Virus record (IMG/VR): IMGVR_UViG_3300032086_001295
Coordinates: 1-21,088 of that record
Length of the DNA stretch: 21,088 nucleotides
Direction: 5' to 3' (one strand)
From: a virus
The translations under genes were made by a program, and so were the position numbers. Numbering within the stretch: the first letter of the stretch is position 1; the number at the start of each line of letters is the position of its first letter. This document shows, piece by piece, positions 9-7,178 of the stretch. Under the pieces are notes generated by a model, which worked only from the letters and a program-made list of their open reading frames with translations, was not told the DNA's origin and ran no database searches.

Positions 9-443
9 CTATTCCTCGGCTGGCTCGTCTTCAATTTTGAAGATCTTGCTGACCTGTATTGGATGAACCCTAAGTTCTTTACCAGCCGTAAGAATAATAG
101 AATTCTCATACTGGCTCCAATCTAGCTTCAGGTCTCTTCCGGTCTTGCCGTCATGCTGAGATGCTACGGCAGCGTTTAAGGCGTTGATTGTGTAGAGAGT
201 GTTTGTTTGCTTTTTCCGATGCATTCTCATAGTAAACAAACGAGGATTAAAAGGCTTTCCCTTTTCAACAATAGCGTTATATGTGATGATCTTTTTAAGG
301 GGATCTTCCTGTTCTTCCAGTAGAAATATTAGGCTGTTAGTAATTTCAATATTATTAACAATATATTCCACTTCTTGTTGGATTTGTTCCTCATTATCAG
401 TTTTGATAAATGATGCTAATAAAACTCCACGTTTGCTCGTCAT
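9..443 (-). CDS. Conserved-looking phage protein of unknown function (HRKK/TLYTINALN motif)
   Basis: A soluble 144-residue protein with no signal peptide or membrane segment. The N-terminal half looks like alternating strands and helices (a beta strand LLASFIK, then an acidic helix, then LIFLLEE). The centre has a basic block, MRMHRKKQTNTLYTINALN at about residues 73-91, the kind of motif a family would conserve. I recall similar small proteins in marine T4-like phages, without known function; this is memory, not a search. It starts with ATG, with AAGGGGAA about ten bases upstream, and lies 60 bases after the FtsZ/tubulin-like gene. A possible promoter and a hairpin lie in that gap. The basic motif could bind nucleic acid, but that is a guess. 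Confidence 0.75.
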   Translation of the reverse strand: MTSKRGVLLASFIKTDNEEQIQQEVEYIVNNIEITNSLIFLLEEQEDPLKKIITYNAIVEKGKPFNPRLFTMRMHRKKQTNTLYTINALNAAVASQHDGKTGRDLKLDWSQYENSIILTAGKELRVHPIQVSKIFKIEDEPAEE

Positions 444-488: not shown

Positions 489-505
489 AGAGAAGCCTTT
501 TCTCT
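489..505 (-). other. Small hairpin over the stop codon of the FtsZ/tubulin-like gene
   Basis: On the minus strand AGAGAA (505-500) can pair with TTCTCT (494-489) around a five-base loop (AAGGC). The stem is only six base pairs and is not followed by a clear run of T, so it is not a convincing terminator. It overlaps the TAG stop codon and may affect mRNA stability or coupling to the next gene. Confidence 0.25.
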
Positions 506-1361
506 AGTTGAAAGCAAAATCCTGGATAGCAGAGGAATAGGCAGCGCACAACACTATCATATTTGGAAGTGTTGTCTCATATACGGAAAAGCTCGTGGAT
601 ATCTCTTCTGATTGGTGGCCTTTAACATGGTCTTTGATTCTTTTAACGAGTGAAGTATCTTCTTTTAGTTCCTTTTCGGGCACCCCATAAAAGAAGTGTA
701 TATCTTTTATCTTCTTGAGAGGGAAGAGCAGATTAATATCTGTACCCCCCTCATCTAACGAGGAAACTCCATAAGAAACAATCCGAGAGATCTCCAGCGG
801 ACTAATTCGATTAGCAAGAATAGGCTTAGTATGGTTGAAAAAATTCATCATAGCGACCACATAGGACACAAAATAAGAAATTGTTTTCTCATATTCAGTA
901 ATTGGCACATCGCCCGCTAATTCATCCACTTTGGGTTTGTTCACTAAAAAGATGTTTTTAAACTTTCCTGAGCGGGCATACTCCTGTAGAACATGGAAAC
1001 AAATCCGGTCGTCCCTCTTTTGCGTTTCTGATATCATTTGCCGATCAGGGCAGATGTATAAAATATTCAATTGGAGATCTTTGATAGTTTCTAAGATTTT
1101 TAAAGTCGCACCCGATATTGGGTCGCCTCCCTCAAGAACAAAAAGAACTTCATCATCTTTCTTCAGGGACCTGAGGTAGTAGGAAACCTCTTCCGAATCA
1201 ACCGCCGTCTCATACTCTGCCATGCCGTCGTGTTCGCCTAAGCTCAACCCATCGTCAATAACTGGGGCTATTTTATAGGTCCTATATTCAGGGTACGCCG
1301 TTAATTCATCGGCGATCGCACAACCTAATTTTCCAAGACCTATAACCTTATCCAACGTCAA
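504..1361 (-). CDS. FtsZ/tubulin-superfamily-like protein with degenerate GTP-binding loops
   Basis: The 285-residue protein follows the FtsZ layout from end to end. A glycine loop, GLGKLG (8-13), opens the Rossmann half. The strand DEVLFVLEGG (70-79) runs into GGDPISGA (78-85), where FtsZ has its GGGTGTG signature. Further on come the strand LNILYICP, IFLVNKPKV with Asn141 in the place of the guanine-contacting Asn loop, and ANRISPLEISRIVSYG (183-198) where FtsZ has NxDxxD followed by helix H8. The end, IHFFYGVPEKEL (221-232) to NMIVLCAAYSS, matches the C-terminal domain. The tubulin signature and the catalytic Asp are changed, so GTP hydrolysis is doubtful. An in-frame TGA just upstream and the absence of ATG force a TTG start, at 1361 or 1355; AAAGG sits eight bases before the second. 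The gene overlaps the polymerase gene by 14 bases. It could be a structural homologue with a new role rather than a filament former. Confidence 0.7.
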   Translation of the reverse strand: MTLDKVIGLGKLGCAIADELTAYPEYRTYKIAPVIDDGLSLGEHDGMAEYETAVDSEEVSYYLRSLKKDDEVLFVLEGGDPISGATLKILETIKDLQLNILYICPDRQMISETQKRDDRICFHVLQEYARSGKFKNIFLVNKPKVDELAGDVPITEYEKTISYFVSYVVAMMNFFNHTKPILANRISPLEISRIVSYGVSSLDEGGTDINLLFPLKKIKDIHFFYGVPEKELKEDTSLVKRIKDHVKGHQSEEISTSFSVYETTLPNMIVLCAAYSSAIQDFAFN

Positions 1362-2574
1362 TACCTTTCATCGAGCCTAATGTCTTTCCTTTTTTTACAT
1401 TTACCACAAACTCACCAAAATTAGTTGAAGACATAAGCTTGGTCAATGACTTAACTAGGTGTTCATCTTCTTTTTTCATATCTACTACAATAGCATCATG
1501 GATCAAGAAAGCGATGTGAGATCCACGACCTTGGGTTCGCAGCAAATACTCTATTTTTAGAGCCTGCTTTAGAGCTAGTTCTGCTGCCGTAGATTGTACC
1601 AAGTAGTTCAGGGCGTGATGCTCAGTTGTATCCTTTATTACCTTTTTAAATGGCGTTCTAACTGTATTACCGTCCCAGTATTTTTCAAGCAGCTTGTCCT
1701 TTTCATAAAAACTAGCTAGTTTTTTCATTTCTGTAACGTCAGCAGCACTCTTTGAGCCATATAGCCAAGCAAAAAAAGCCACTTTGGCGTCTGATCGATT
1801 GTTTATTTTTGTGAATATTTCCTGAAGATGGAAGTCGTGAACATCTCCTTCGGGCTGCGGCTTATTAAGCAGCCCCAGCAATGTCCTAACCTCTGCTCCA
1901 TTGAAGTCAAACTCAATGTAATAATCATTCTGAGGCTCGATCGCTGAACGGAACTCTTTACTAAGGGTAAGAATCGGGATAGTCCCTTTTTTACTTGTGA
2001 GGCGTCCAGTCTTGGTACCGAACTGGTTATATTTAACGCAGGGCTCAGCAGCTAGCAACGTCTTAGCATGGTTTTTAAGTTTAGGGCTCTGGAGATATGA
2101 AGAGATCTTGGACCTATTCAGAGTAACACGATGATGACCTTGGTCCTCTAGCATCATAGCAACATGTTTATAAAACTCATAACGTTGTGGCTTTTCAGTA
2201 TTCTTTAGGACATAATCAGTTATTTTATTTTTTACCTCGCAAAATTCCATTAAAAACCTATCGGGCACCAGGTCGAAAAAACAGTTCTCGTTTGTATTGA
2301 CCTGAGATATGGCTAAAGACCTCTTAAAGGCATTGATTTTGCGGGACACATCATCCCAATCATCTTTAAGATACTCAGGGATAATATCAGAGATAAGTTT
2401 CCCCTCCAAGTATAAAGAAGCATACTCTACATCCATTCCCCTCAAATAAGAGGAGTATTTCCAAGTCTTGCTTAATCTATCTGGAAAATCATCGGGGTCA
2501 AAAATCAGAGAATTATCGGTGTATATACCAACGCACTCGGTCTTGTCGTCCAAAGTCTGAAATAACACTAGCAC
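1348..2574 (-). CDS. Short family A (Pol I-type) DNA polymerase, no visible 3'-5' exonuclease
   Basis: A template-directed DNA polymerase of 408 residues. TKTGRLTSKKG (187-197) is the family's T.GRLSS segment. Motif A is DFNGAEVR with Asp223 (metal ligand) and Glu228 (steric gate). Motif B is RSDAKVAFFAWLYG (260-273), with Arg260, Lys264, Phe268 and Tyr272 in the O-helix spacing of Klenow fragment. LNYLVQSTAAEL (322-333) is the conserved Q/T-AA segment, and motif C is LIHDAIV with His359-Asp360. The residue after HD is Ala rather than the usual Glu. The first 130 residues show no convincing set of exonuclease motifs, and phage Pol A proteins are usually longer. The start is GTG at 2574; a second GTG at 2568 has AGG better spaced before it. 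The gene begins immediately after the 504-residue structural-region gene (one-base gap). A polymerase within a virion operon is odd; repair or a specialised synthesis role is possible. Confidence 0.85.
   Translation of the reverse strand: MLVLFQTLDDKTECVGIYTDNSLIFDPDDFPDRLSKTWKYSSYLRGMDVEYASLYLEGKLISDIIPEYLKDDWDDVSRKINAFKRSLAISQVNTNENCFFDLVPDRFLMEFCEVKNKITDYVLKNTEKPQRYEFYKHVAMMLEDQGHHRVTLNRSKISSYLQSPKLKNHAKTLLAAEPCVKYNQFGTKTGRLTSKKGTIPILTLSKEFRSAIEPQNDYYIEFDFNGAEVRTLLGLLNKPQPEGDVHDFHLQEIFTKINNRSDAKVAFFAWLYGSKSAADVTEMKKLASFYEKDKLLEKYWDGNTVRTPFKKVIKDTTEHHALNYLVQSTAAELALKQALKIEYLLRTQGRGSHIAFLIHDAIVVDMKKEDEHLVKSLTKLMSSTNFGEFVVNVKKGKTLGSMKGIDVG
1364..1368 (-). promoter_or_regulatory. Ribosome-binding site deciding a TTG start
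   Basis: AAAGG on the minus strand lies inside the end of the polymerase gene. It is eight bases before the TTG at 1355 but only two before the TTG at 1361, so 1355 (protein two residues shorter) is the likelier start of the FtsZ/tubulin-like protein. Confidence 0.45.
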
Positions 2575-2575
2575 C

Positions 2576-4090
2576 TCACCGTTGTATTATATCCCCAACT
2601 GTTTGTAGTGTTAACGGGTCAACATCTGCGGGTCCAATGTAATCCACCTGGGCAGCAGTCAGCGCCCGTTGATAGGCAGTCTCAGGATCGTCAGCCATTG
2701 AAAGGTTGTACCCATTTAAAATTTGTTGAATTTCGTACACCTTCCTTCTGGGAGGCAACTGATTTAATCTTTCAATATTGCGAATAATATAAAAGGTCTT
2801 AAGCTTCCATCGATCCCCATACATACTATCAAAATCTTGCGGTGTCAAGGTGTTTCTTAAAAAAGAAGTTGTTCGAGGTCCGCAATCAGAATCAAAAGGA
2901 GTTAAATTTTGAGTTGCTACTCTTCCCTGGAGGGAGACATAATAGTTATAAAAATATAAGAGATATTCCTGGAGGAGGTCAATATCAGTCTGATATGAGG
3001 GAGAATAATCTGTTCTAAACATTGTACTGAAAACTATGGGTTGCTGGGCTGTATCAAAAGCGGGAACCCAGCTTGAACCAGTCCATGTTTTATATCTTCT
3101 GAACCCTGGCTCTATTGTCTCCACGCCCTCAGAGTTAGTATAAGTGAAAACAGACACTCGACGACGAACGTCGGCTAAGCCTGGAATCTGCGAATAGCCA
3201 AAAGCTTGAGGAGGCAACTCAGTATCGCCCACAACAGGGTCACAAAGAAATTCTACCACATCTGGAAATACTATTTCTTCAATCGGAACGCCGAGCATGT
3301 ATTCAAGCATCACTGGATTTCTTAAGTCAGCGACAAAGCGCCAAGGTATGTTCTTATCGACAGAAAAGCCATAACGAGCAGCCAATGTACATATTAAAGA
3401 AAAGTTATAATCCCCAAACTTATAGGATTTGTTAAAATCATTATCGTAGTCATCTCCTGCTATTTCTATAACAAGGCCAGATGAATACATTGGGCAATAA
3501 TTTCCCTCTATGAAGCCGGACAAAGTTACAGGACCTACCTTTGACATTGTGTCCCTCATAAAATTATTGAACTCATTGATGAAATCATTAATGTTTCGTA
3601 TGCGGGTGTTGGTATCCCCGCTATATAAGTAATTGTTATAAAGGACTGGATAAATGTTTTCCCTCATGTAAAGATCATAACCCGTTTCGGCTGGCTCCCA
3701 AGCTTTCACCACCTGTGGGTTTGCCCAAGGACTGTCTTTATAAATCACATTGACAGCAACTAATTCTCGAACTTTTCGACAGAAATCAGCCCAAGCATCA
3801 GCAACGAAATTCAAAGCATAATACGCCCTGTCCTCGTCTGAACCAAACTGTAAGCTTCGAAGACGACGAGGGTCAGGCGTTACAGCATTACCATAAGTGT
3901 CAACAAGACCATAATACCTTTCGGTGGTCCAAGTGCTTACAAAGTTATCTGCCAAGAAGTCTGGAAACACATAAGAATCATATTTTTGCCTCTCACGGAA
4001 GATCTCTGCGGAGGATTTTGTATTATCCCCATATGAAAAAAGATCAACATTGCTTTCAGGATTTACTTTTAATCTTGTTTGATTAGCCAT
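2576..4090 (-). CDS. Unrecognised probable virion (baseplate-region) protein, 504 residues
   Basis: A large soluble protein rich in Tyr, Phe, Asn and Asp, without membrane segments, signal peptide or an enzyme motif that I recognise. The centre, about residues 225-265, has the stretch ARYGFSVDKNIPWRFVADL, which looks like a conserved family core. The Tyr- and Asp-rich composition and the acidic loops fit a structural protein. It starts with ATG one base after the stop of the hub-like gene, with GAGG about 12 bases upstream, so the two are probably co-translated. Position after the hub and before the polymerase suggests a baseplate or tail-associated part, but that is inferred from context alone. 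I recall proteins of this look labelled 'virion structural protein' in marine phages. Confidence 0.75.
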   Translation of the reverse strand: MANQTRLKVNPESNVDLFSYGDNTKSSAEIFRERQKYDSYVFPDFLADNFVSTWTTERYYGLVDTYGNAVTPDPRRLRSLQFGSDEDRAYYALNFVADAWADFCRKVRELVAVNVIYKDSPWANPQVVKAWEPAETGYDLYMRENIYPVLYNNYLYSGDTNTRIRNINDFINEFNNFMRDTMSKVGPVTLSGFIEGNYCPMYSSGLVIEIAGDDYDNDFNKSYKFGDYNFSLICTLAARYGFSVDKNIPWRFVADLRNPVMLEYMLGVPIEEIVFPDVVEFLCDPVVGDTELPPQAFGYSQIPGLADVRRRVSVFTYTNSEGVETIEPGFRRYKTWTGSSWVPAFDTAQQPIVFSTMFRTDYSPSYQTDIDLLQEYLLYFYNYYVSLQGRVATQNLTPFDSDCGPRTTSFLRNTLTPQDFDSMYGDRWKLKTFYIIRNIERLNQLPPRRKVYEIQQILNGYNLSMADDPETAYQRALTAAQVDYIGPADVDPLTLQTVGDIIQR

Positions 4091-4091
4091 T

Positions 4092-7000
4092 TTAGGACGC
4101 CCTCAGTTCGAAGACGCAACTCAGGTTGGTTGTATATCCTCGATTAGTTATTTTGTGCGTCGAGCGCACCACTCGATAATAACCTCCGATACCTAGGATA
4201 TTGCCAGCTACCTTGCCGAGAGCACGTCTCGTGTCTACGAAAATTAAATCACCGTTCCTGTGTATGCCATTTCCGTACATTTCTATTTCTACATTCTGAG
4301 GTAAGAATAGCGCCTGGATCTTGTCAGCGGCGTTGTTAGACTCAATCAACATCTCTTGATAATACGCCGTTTCTTGACGAGAAAAATTAAATCTCTTAGC
4401 TAAACCTCGGTCAGACCCGACCACATAGTGAAAAATTCCATCATCCATGTCCTGGACTCTGTTTCCTGTTCTCTTTCCAAAGCCCATTTTCTTAGTAAAA
4501 ATAGGGTAATAGTTTTGATAAACTTTCTGCGTGCCGTTAAGTGGGTCAAGAAGACCTTCTCGGATCTTACGGTAATCGCTAGGAAGTAAGACTCTATTTG
4601 TATCTGCTCTTGGGTTGCGAAACGTAGAGGAGATAACCGTATAGTCAAAAGACATACGCTCTGACGTCTGAGGGTTTTGGTTAATTAGTCTAGCTGTGTA
4701 ATTAAGAAAGTCATTTAAAAAGGTACGAAAAGGGTACGCTGTTAGACGCCTACTAACAACTCGATTAAAGAAAAACTGCCCAAAACTATCCATGGTGATC
4801 GGTATATTGTATATGGGTCGATCGTTATCATTTATATCTTCATACTGTCCCAACAGAAGAGTGATGTCTTTGCGTAAGTCCGCATTTTTCATAGCAATTT
4901 TAAAGATATCACCCAAAAGTGCGTAATAAACAACAAAAGCAGTGTCTAGTTTTCCTCTATCAATTTGAGGCTGTATGGGGGATGTCATGCCACCCTCCGC
5001 AGATGAGGATTGTGCCTCGGTAGACATATTCGGATTGCCACCTCTTTCTATCTGCTGACGGGCGTCTACCCTATCTTGTTGTAAATTAGCGACAGACCGT
5101 GGATCTACGGTCAATTTAACTTTATCTGAATTGTCTATTTCTACTAGAGCTTTCCTGACAATTCCACTATCCAACATAGTCTCTAAAAAGTCGGAATACA
5201 TATCTCTGAGGCGCTTATTCAGTGCTCGGTTGTAAATCAAGACGATGTACGCCGCACGCTTTGTAAGAGATTTAACATACCCTGATTCAGAGTTAAGATT
5301 CATGATTTCCGCTTTTTTAAGCTCTAATTGAACAAGTTCCTGAGCAAACCGAAGACCTGCCAATTGAACACTAATATATCTCTCCCCAAACTGGTCTACT
5401 TTCTGTCCTGTTTCTTTTAGTCTAGCTTCAAGATATGGGTCAGCGATCGTCAGCGGGTTTATACCTGCTGCCCTTGCTCCACTGAAGTTAGCCGGGACTT
5501 TATCTATCAGGTTGCCCCTCTCAGACAAGATGCCCTCCAAAGACACTTTTGTATCCTCATACATAACTTTAGAATTAAAATTGTTTGATCCAAATATGTC
5601 CGAACTATCGGTAGCCATATAGTTGTCAGATGATCCCAGGAACTTCATACTTAGAGTGGTTGGACCTTCTTGAGTAAAATTAACATTGTAGTCAAAAAGA
5701 TTTAAATGAATGGCTGTTTGAGTCTTTTTGACATCTGCCATAAAGGTCGCCATAGAATCACCTGGCATAAGCTGCTTAAGTTGATCTTTGTTTCCATCAG
5801 GGACGGACCAACCTACAATAACTTTCAATTGTCTAAAGTTTCTTTTTCGAGAAGCTCGTAGTTGTTTGTTGTTGTCTGAGTTTAGCTTCTGGAGTTCTGA
5901 GTTTCCCTTGTTTAAAATTTTTCGGTACTTGTCAATCTTTCGATTTATGTCCATAATTTCTTGTGAAACATTTCTTTGGTCGTTTTGAGTGCGAGCACCC
6001 TCTTTTGCCCTTTGGCGACCAGATGTGCTCTCTAGTTCAGACGCTATATCCACAGCATTCCCAGTTGGGAATAAAAATTGAAGATATTCAATGTTAGCTA
6101 ATTCTAGCAGTGTGCTAAAATATAATTCTAATTCAGCTTCAATGATATAATCACCTTCATGTTTATTGTTATAGTTCCATGTAAAAGAGGTAATCCCTGC
6201 TTCACCACCTCCTCCTTTGCGAGGCCTCAGGATATCTGTTAGGTTTTTTTCATTTTTAAGTTTAGCTATACTCTTTATGTGCTCAACCGAGACTTTGTCA
6301 CTAAAAAATATTTCCTCTGAGTTTCCTTTTGAGTCAACAATAAAAAATCTAAGCATTGGCATTAGACACGCCAACTGTGCCGGTGTAGCATTTAAAAAAT
6401 CCCCGCCCCCCTGATTGTTCGATCGGGATACTTTCTTAAACATCTTTTCCGTAGATAGTCTCTGGTGGAGAGCGCCCTTGGAGGTTCCATCTTTTTCAAG
6501 TTTATAGATGTTCTCTGGACCCGTGGCTTTAAACTCAGAAGTGTCAAATTCTTGTGCTCTGTTGAACAACAGAGATTGAACATTTCTTAGATATTTCTTA
6601 ATAGCTGCCGCAGAAGTCTCTTTTCTGTCCTCAGCCTGGGGCTCACGAGCCGTGCTTCCATCGCCGCCCTCTTCTTGGTCCTGAAGAGGATCGCCAGATA
6701 TCATTTTCTCTGCTACCTCTTGAGATATCGGCTTGTTTTTAGAGTCGTAAAAATCATTGGTGCCCCGGCGACGGTATACCCCATTCCCCTCATAGGTGTA
6801 CTTGTCAAGATTTGCTGCCGGAGATCTCGTTGGGTTTTGTTGGACTGTAGCAGAAGGCTCTTTAGGAAGAGCAGCGATAGCTTTTCTCTTGCCTTCGGCA
6901 TTGGTGGTTTTACGCTTTTCTATATCTCGTACAGCCTTGTCGTAAGCCATCTTATAAGCTTCTTCAGGTGTTCGATTAGTCGCCTTAAAAGGGTCTTTTT

Positions 7001-7178
7001 TAAGATAGTACATGGCATCACGTTCGAGTTCAGTCTGCCTATTGCGTGGTTTCTCCCACCAATTCTTGCCTTTCGCAGGAGGGTTGAGGAATTTTTTGGC
7101 GGTATAATACTCGTCCATTCGCCCCTCTTCTTTGAGCCTGTTTATGATGCTTATTTTCTCTGATTTACTTACCGTCAT
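4092..7178 (-). CDS. Large baseplate hub-like protein
   Basis: This is a 1028-residue protein. Residues 1-190 are charged and low in complexity (a likely flexible or linker arm). Residues 265-375 and 450-520 alternate hydrophobic strands (for example ITSFTWNY, IIEAELELYF, LKVIVGWSVP, AIHLNLFDYNVNF), as in tail-tube or hub beta barrels. A coiled coil lies between them at about 385-445. The last 115 residues (FHYVVGSD... to CVFELRAS) include a strand-GN-strand segment, VEIEMYGNGIHRNGDLIFVD, and end with GIGGYYRVVRSTHKIT. Such an ending is typical of gp27/gpD-like hubs, where the domain seats the spike. No lysozyme motif is seen. It starts at ATG with AGGT upstream and follows the LysM-like baseplate gene by ten bases. 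The hub call rests on fold-like patterns and position, so a different central baseplate role is possible. Confidence 0.6.
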   Translation of the reverse strand: MTVSKSEKISIINRLKEEGRMDEYYTAKKFLNPPAKGKNWWEKPRNRQTELERDAMYYLKKDPFKATNRTPEEAYKMAYDKAVRDIEKRKTTNAEGKRKAIAALPKEPSATVQQNPTRSPAANLDKYTYEGNGVYRRRGTNDFYDSKNKPISQEVAEKMISGDPLQDQEEGGDGSTAREPQAEDRKETSAAAIKKYLRNVQSLLFNRAQEFDTSEFKATGPENIYKLEKDGTSKGALHQRLSTEKMFKKVSRSNNQGGGDFLNATPAQLACLMPMLRFFIVDSKGNSEEIFFSDKVSVEHIKSIAKLKNEKNLTDILRPRKGGGGEAGITSFTWNYNNKHEGDYIIEAELELYFSTLLELANIEYLQFLFPTGNAVDIASELESTSGRQRAKEGARTQNDQRNVSQEIMDINRKIDKYRKILNKGNSELQKLNSDNNKQLRASRKRNFRQLKVIVGWSVPDGNKDQLKQLMPGDSMATFMADVKKTQTAIHLNLFDYNVNFTQEGPTTLSMKFLGSSDNYMATDSSDIFGSNNFNSKVMYEDTKVSLEGILSERGNLIDKVPANFSGARAAGINPLTIADPYLEARLKETGQKVDQFGERYISVQLAGLRFAQELVQLELKKAEIMNLNSESGYVKSLTKRAAYIVLIYNRALNKRLRDMYSDFLETMLDSGIVRKALVEIDNSDKVKLTVDPRSVANLQQDRVDARQQIERGGNPNMSTEAQSSSAEGGMTSPIQPQIDRGKLDTAFVVYYALLGDIFKIAMKNADLRKDITLLLGQYEDINDNDRPIYNIPITMDSFGQFFFNRVVSRRLTAYPFRTFLNDFLNYTARLINQNPQTSERMSFDYTVISSTFRNPRADTNRVLLPSDYRKIREGLLDPLNGTQKVYQNYYPIFTKKMGFGKRTGNRVQDMDDGIFHYVVGSDRGLAKRFNFSRQETAYYQEMLIESNNAADKIQALFLPQNVEIEMYGNGIHRNGDLIFVDTRRALGKVAGNILGIGGYYRVVRSTHKITNRGYTTNLSCVFELRAS

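Follow-up and report, generated by a model that had tools for sequence, protein, structure and literature searches.

The locus and its gene neighbourhood

The window, a 21,088-nucleotide stretch of viral DNA, carries on its minus strand the gene of a tubulin/FtsZ-fold protein of 283 amino acids, recognised from its reading frame, the starts of its relatives, its fold and its family, and named Tub2 in what follows (504..1355; stop codon 504-506). The 285-residue reading frame originally predicted at 504-1361 is present on this strand; its start is more likely the TTG codon at 1355 than the one at 1361, because relatives of the protein begin with MDKVIG, and this reduces the product to 283 residues. 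From the TTG start, Tub2 runs across the stop codon (1348-1350) of the gene before it, an overlap of 8 bases. That gene encodes a DNA polymerase of family A (1348..2574, minus strand; Pfam DNA_pol_A, E 9.9e-17; PHROG 17; also supported by synteny), which is short, about 400 amino acids (408 aa). Further upstream lie a 504-aa protein (2576..4090) and a 1028-aa protein of the tail/baseplate region (4092..7178), both of unassigned function and both conserved in synteny. Downstream, a 144-aa protein (9..443) has a relative, gp002 (a relation read by eye), at the equivalent place in Flavobacterium phage immuto, which lacks Tub2. All three are encoded on the minus strand.

The window opens at its far end with head genes, among them that of the major head protein; neck, sheath, tube and baseplate genes come next, and the polymerase and Tub2 close the series. 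In related contigs Tub2 is followed by SSB (gp32-like), UvsX/RecA, a 5'-3' exonuclease, DnaB helicase and, by eye, RNR. The gene had been described as part of a virion operon; it does not belong to one but is the opening gene of a replication module, at the junction with the tail/baseplate genes. This arrangement is highly regular: the polymerase gene lies at most three genes upstream of Tub2 in 76 of 77 loci, SSB at most four genes downstream in 73 of 76, and in most loci the upstream gene overlaps the Tub2 start by a few bases. Contigs found through their polymerase and long enough to be informative carried Tub2 in 74 of 74 cases (with SSB as well in 73), a figure that is no census, as most of the polymerases used as seeds came from loci with Tub2. 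Within this phage group Tub2 is kept about as consistently as the polymerase itself.

Several small genes recur around this module. A 105-aa protein resembling, by eye, a MazG-type pyrophosphohydrolase (L045:5681-5998, plus strand) lies directly upstream of Tub2 in 31 loci, mostly with 4-base overlaps. Also by eye, in a few loci of clade A (defined below) a small heat-shock protein (Hsp20)-like gene (L002:7450-7956, plus strand) separates the 144-aa gene from SSB, and several contigs of clade B encode a 74-aa Smr domain-like protein (L038:8502-8726, plus strand) beyond the downstream end of the Tub2-SSB region.

The original assignment to a T4-type phage can be narrowed. The window encodes a T4-type capsid, sheath and tail tube, RM378, Immutovirus immuto and Microcystis phage Mel-JY01 are among the closest matches of its major capsid protein, and the terminase on a relative's contig is closest to those of immuto and Mel-JY01. 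Capsid and terminase together point to a fragment of a phage of the Far-T4 group (PMC4360716). Neither Tub2 nor the second tubulin described below (Tub1) was found when RM378, immuto and Mel-JY01 were searched for both. In immuto the order polA, relative of the 144-aa protein, SSB, recombinase, exonuclease, helicase, RNR is the same without Tub2, and the job of Tub2 is therefore dispensable or taken over in that phage. Two candidates in immuto were considered and dismissed: gp002/gp003 as a split Tub2, since gp002 resembles the 144-aa neighbour, and gp077 near the terminase as Tub1, since its sequence has no tubulin features.

Distribution of the Tub2 family

Searching IMG/VR with the window protein alone returned 10 relatives of Tub2, and two scans of the same collection with a profile of the family returned at least 592 and at least 589 confirmed stretches. 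The carriers are T4-like (Far-T4) phages, few of them cultured, and make up a large group represented by hundreds of viral contigs. Tblastn with four family members against 50,697 phage records gave no convincing match, and no relative of Tub2 or Tub1 was found in the GTDB genome contigs searched, for which reason we name no host. We found no earlier description of the family in the openly readable literature. In contigs L303 and L305 the Tub2 match crosses an in-frame TAA.

The family is also invisible to the libraries searched with it. The window Tub2 sequence found nothing of weight in Pfam, PHROGs, NCBIfam, PADLOC or the PDB sequences. In particular, Pfam PF00091 (Tubulin) did not match it at E 1, nor the Tub2 position in 20 records; PHROGs gave no match, so the PhuZ profile (PHROG 4733) did not recognise it; and the NCBIfam FtsZ equivalog TIGR00065 did not either. 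There was likewise no detectable sequence link between Tub2 and the phiKZ and 201phi2-1 protein, and single FtsZ or PhuZ sequences gave no signal against the Tub2 family profile, which is why we claim no deeper branching order.

Fold and common descent with a canonical phage tubulin

The FtsZ/tubulin fold, first proposed from the letters by eye, is borne out by structure prediction. An AlphaFold model of Tub2 built on a 70-sequence alignment reached a pLDDT of 94.7 and a pTM of 0.92, and has the Rossmann-like N-terminal domain, central helix H7 and C-terminal domain of the superfamily. In a Foldseek search with this model all 50 of the best PDB matches listed were FtsZ or TubZ, with no other Rossmann family among them; the top match was FtsZ (1fsz, E 1.2e-11, TM 0.70), and 2r6r also aligned at a TM of about 0.7. 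Glycine loop, signature loop, S6/T6, H7, T7 and C-terminal strands follow one another in the order originally claimed. The best match in BFVD (E 2e-12, TM 0.77) was A0A6J5RW92, annotated as "FtsZ Cell division GTPase" of an uncultured Caudovirales phage, which at 452 aa is a longer protein.

Sequence profiles connect Tub2 to a second protein of related phages, the canonical TubZ/FtsZ-like protein of 377 aa that we call Tub1 (L099:934-2067, plus strand; also L101-L180). When the Tub2 profile was run against related genomes, a second, weak match appeared in two of them, and in both it was Tub1. Tub1 itself passes Pfam cut-offs for Tubulin (36.5 bits, cut-off 33) and TubZ-like_C (27.9, cut-off 26), and matches TIGR00065 at E 2.5e-13, far below the cut-off of that model; its own AlphaFold model, from a shallow alignment, has a pLDDT of 43. 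Hhalign joined Tub2 to the Tub1 family at a probability of 94% (E 1.3e-7, 262 columns) and to a wider Tub1 profile at 96% (E 3.5e-9), and the link covers the central helix and S6/T6. HMM matches were reciprocal, at E 7e-7 from Tub2 to Tub1 and at E 6e-4 to 6e-7 from Tub1 to Tub2 in the best genomes. As a control, 155 proteins of 250-450 aa from three related phage genomes were compared with the Tub2 profile: apart from orthologues of Tub2, which also score in this set, Tub1 was the only protein found (E 1.3e-6, probability 91%; next best 4%), and the likeness to FtsZ thus exceeds chance, as had been supposed. We regard a tubulin fold and common descent with Tub1 as almost certain. Fold and descent place Tub2 in the tubulin/FtsZ superfamily as one of its divergent relatives; it is not classed as FtsZ, TubZ or PhuZ, whose features fail in it wherever they were tested.

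Loss of the T7 and H8 half of the interface

In phiKZ TubZ, FtsZ and tubulin, the protofilament interface is formed by loop T7, the base of helix H8 and strand S9, and the catalytic aspartate lies in T7 (PMC3678025). At the corresponding place in Tub2 (residues 175-191; 783..833, this and the following features all on the minus strand), columns 182-190 hold no conserved acidic pair across 140 Tub2 sequences, and R191 is nearly invariant. In the model the chain passes from H7 (residues 152-174, from DSSP of the model; 834..902) to the next long strand (192-198) without forming a helix, so H8 is absent. The signature loop T4 has changed as well: the window has GGDPISGA (residues 76-83; 1107..1130) and clade B GAG-x-ISGG at the place of the canonical GGGTGTG. 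Tub1 has the Gly-rich GVSGGSGGG and, at T7/H8, the aspartate-bearing TFDATDYDSIM at the equivalent sites. The family has a motif of its own, LQEYARSG (residues 123-130; 966..989), in which Q124, R128 and S129 are invariant in the 140 sequences.

The degeneration of the signature and T7 loops that was originally noticed in one sequence hence extends, for T7, through the family: judging from alignment and model, the T7 acidic residues and H8, the half of the interface that touches the neighbour's GTP, have been lost throughout. Since these parts are missing, Tub2 very probably makes no canonical filament, and GTP hydrolysis is predicted to be unlikely. Of the forms first envisaged, a non-polymerising one is favoured by sequence and model, although a degenerate-looking loop can still permit assembly of another kind.

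Two clades and a remodelled pocket

The window belongs to a clade of 27 rows in the tree (clade A, support 98), which is compared here with clade B (114 sequences). Clade B has N at column 140 in 111 sequences, N160 in 112 and H168 in 113; clade A mostly has K or R, S and A at these columns, and the window has K140, S160 and A168, the last two within H7. The glycine loop T1, GLGKLGCA in the window (residues 6-13; 1317..1340), reads GLGKAGCN in clade B; its Asn is gone from clade A, where G78 has mostly become D or E and P79 is fixed. N140, N160, H168, G78 and A10 are thus conserved in clade B and altered in clade A. Columns 140 and 160, which we take from homologues to be the guanine contacts, align with the conserved DN204 and the N224/225 region of Tub1. 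The loss of the Asn pair, present in 111-112 of the 114 clade-B sequences, is confined to the window's clade. The guanine-contact Asn had originally been read in FLVNKPKV; that residue is N139, one position off the family-conserved column 140 (N139-K140; 936..941).

Two basal members of clade A, L028 and L029, retain N160, so that N140 was probably lost first. The gene is under purifying selection, with dN/dS values of 0.02-0.2, for the most part 0.03-0.1, among pairs with measurable dS, most of which are clade B; the clade-A pairs that could be measured gave similar values (L021/L022, 0.03; L002/L005, 0.05). Low dN/dS argues for a pocket that was remodelled in clade A, not one that decayed. 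Within this clade Tub2 has diverged about as fast as the polymerase (mean identity 0.56 vs 0.61).

Tub1 and the proposed role of Tub2

Tubulin-superfamily proteins are known as filament-forming GTPases, and the phage versions position DNA. On balance, we lean towards a different use of the fold here, in which Tub2 would be a non-polymerising accessory of phage DNA replication, its molecular job being inferred. That it so regularly follows the polymerase points to a role linked with replication more than to the host-FtsZ poison or scaffold originally suggested. Tub2 may act as a monomeric or differently assembled factor, with the polymerase and/or SSB as its most likely binding partners; synteny is evidence of co-expression, not of physical contact. 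Ancestrally or in clade B, where the guanine-contact Asn residues are kept, it could be a GTP-bound scaffold; in the window's clade it may instead be a pseudo-GTPase, its remodelled pocket no longer able to read guanine. If this role is confirmed, a tubulin would have been put to use as a replication part: a protein that has lost the half of its superfamily's structure serving catalysis and the interface, yet is as regular as the polymerase and tied to replication genes.

Tub1 brings a second tubulin into some of these genomes. Window-clade contigs that are long enough carry both proteins (G001, G002, G008, G009, G011, G016 and several shorter ones; G010, basal in clade A, ends before the expected place), with Tub1 about 30 kb upstream of Tub2 and, in G016 (L309), three genes ahead of the terminase. 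Identity among 19 aligned Tub1 copies is 83-95%. Tub1 went undetected in seven of the eight clade-B contigs of at least 150 kb (G003, G004, G005, G007, G021, G022 and G024), all eight of which carry Tub2; the eighth, G023, has a divergent Tub1 relative of 364 aa (L308:1887-2981, minus strand), which shares 27-29% identity with Tub1, keeps its T7 aspartates and lies among other neighbouring genes. An association of Tub1 with the window's clade is suggestive, in contigs that are fragments and related by descent. Should Tub2 be a replication-linked accessory, it may in this clade tether the replication complex to Tub1 filaments, or cap them, though we hold such Tub1-coupled action to be only a tentative extension. 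Tentative, too, is the fuller picture of a core non-filamentous tubulin of the replication machine that in one clade became a pseudo-GTPase beside a canonical tubulin; the presence of Tub1 in the same genomes does offer a defined two-tubulin phage system.

An obligate partnership with Tub1, in which Tub2 would join a mixed filament, cap it or nucleate it in the manner of gamma-tubulin and so position phage DNA, would fit the shared occurrence in the window's clade, the confinement of the pocket change to that clade and the extreme conservation of Tub1 (mean identity 94% vs 62% for Tub2 in the same eight contigs). We nevertheless think it unlikely: the two genes are some 30 kb apart, one of them near the terminase gene, and since in most clade-B genomes Tub2 occurs where no Tub1 could be detected, coupling to Tub1 is not the general function of Tub2. 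The two proteins, alike in superfamily and in the Asn positions shared with clade B, also differ in that Tub1 has both the Gly-rich signature and the T7 aspartates, and Tub2 neither.

Host takeover, with Tub2 docking on host FtsZ to cap or poison its filaments and stop host division during infection, is a rather improbable reading. An FtsZ-like fold lacking the T7/H8 half would suit a one-sided cap, and phage proteins that bind FtsZ are known, such as T7 Gp0.4, reported in complex with FtsZ (PMC13423816). Against this, Tub2 stays tied to the polymerase and SSB genes within a core operon, and the nucleotide-side face is itself altered in the window's clade. Genes for host takeover tend to be variable, early and dispensable. 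FtsZ, which supplies the best PDB fold matches, differs from Tub2 in its longer C-terminal domain, its T7 acidic pair and its H8.

That Tub2 is an ordinary cytoskeletal tubulin of the PhuZ/TubZ type, polymerising to move or centre DNA, is very unlikely. It shares the phage-encoded fold of PhuZ and phiKZ TubZ, and clade B retains the Asn residues with which related proteins contact guanine, but PhuZ and phiKZ TubZ polymerise through the canonical T7/H8 interface (PMC3678025), both parts of which are wanting here, and come from nucleus-forming jumbo phages, not Far-T4 phages. The idea of a Rossmann-type NAD- or SAM-binding enzyme that happens to resemble tubulin can be set aside with little hesitation: a GLGxxG sequence like that at the start of Tub2 occurs generically in dinucleotide-binding proteins, and two relatives gave a weak TrkA_N match (E 0.12), but the 50 best PDB matches listed and the profile link to Tub1 over the central helix and S6/T6 all lead to the tubulin superfamily.
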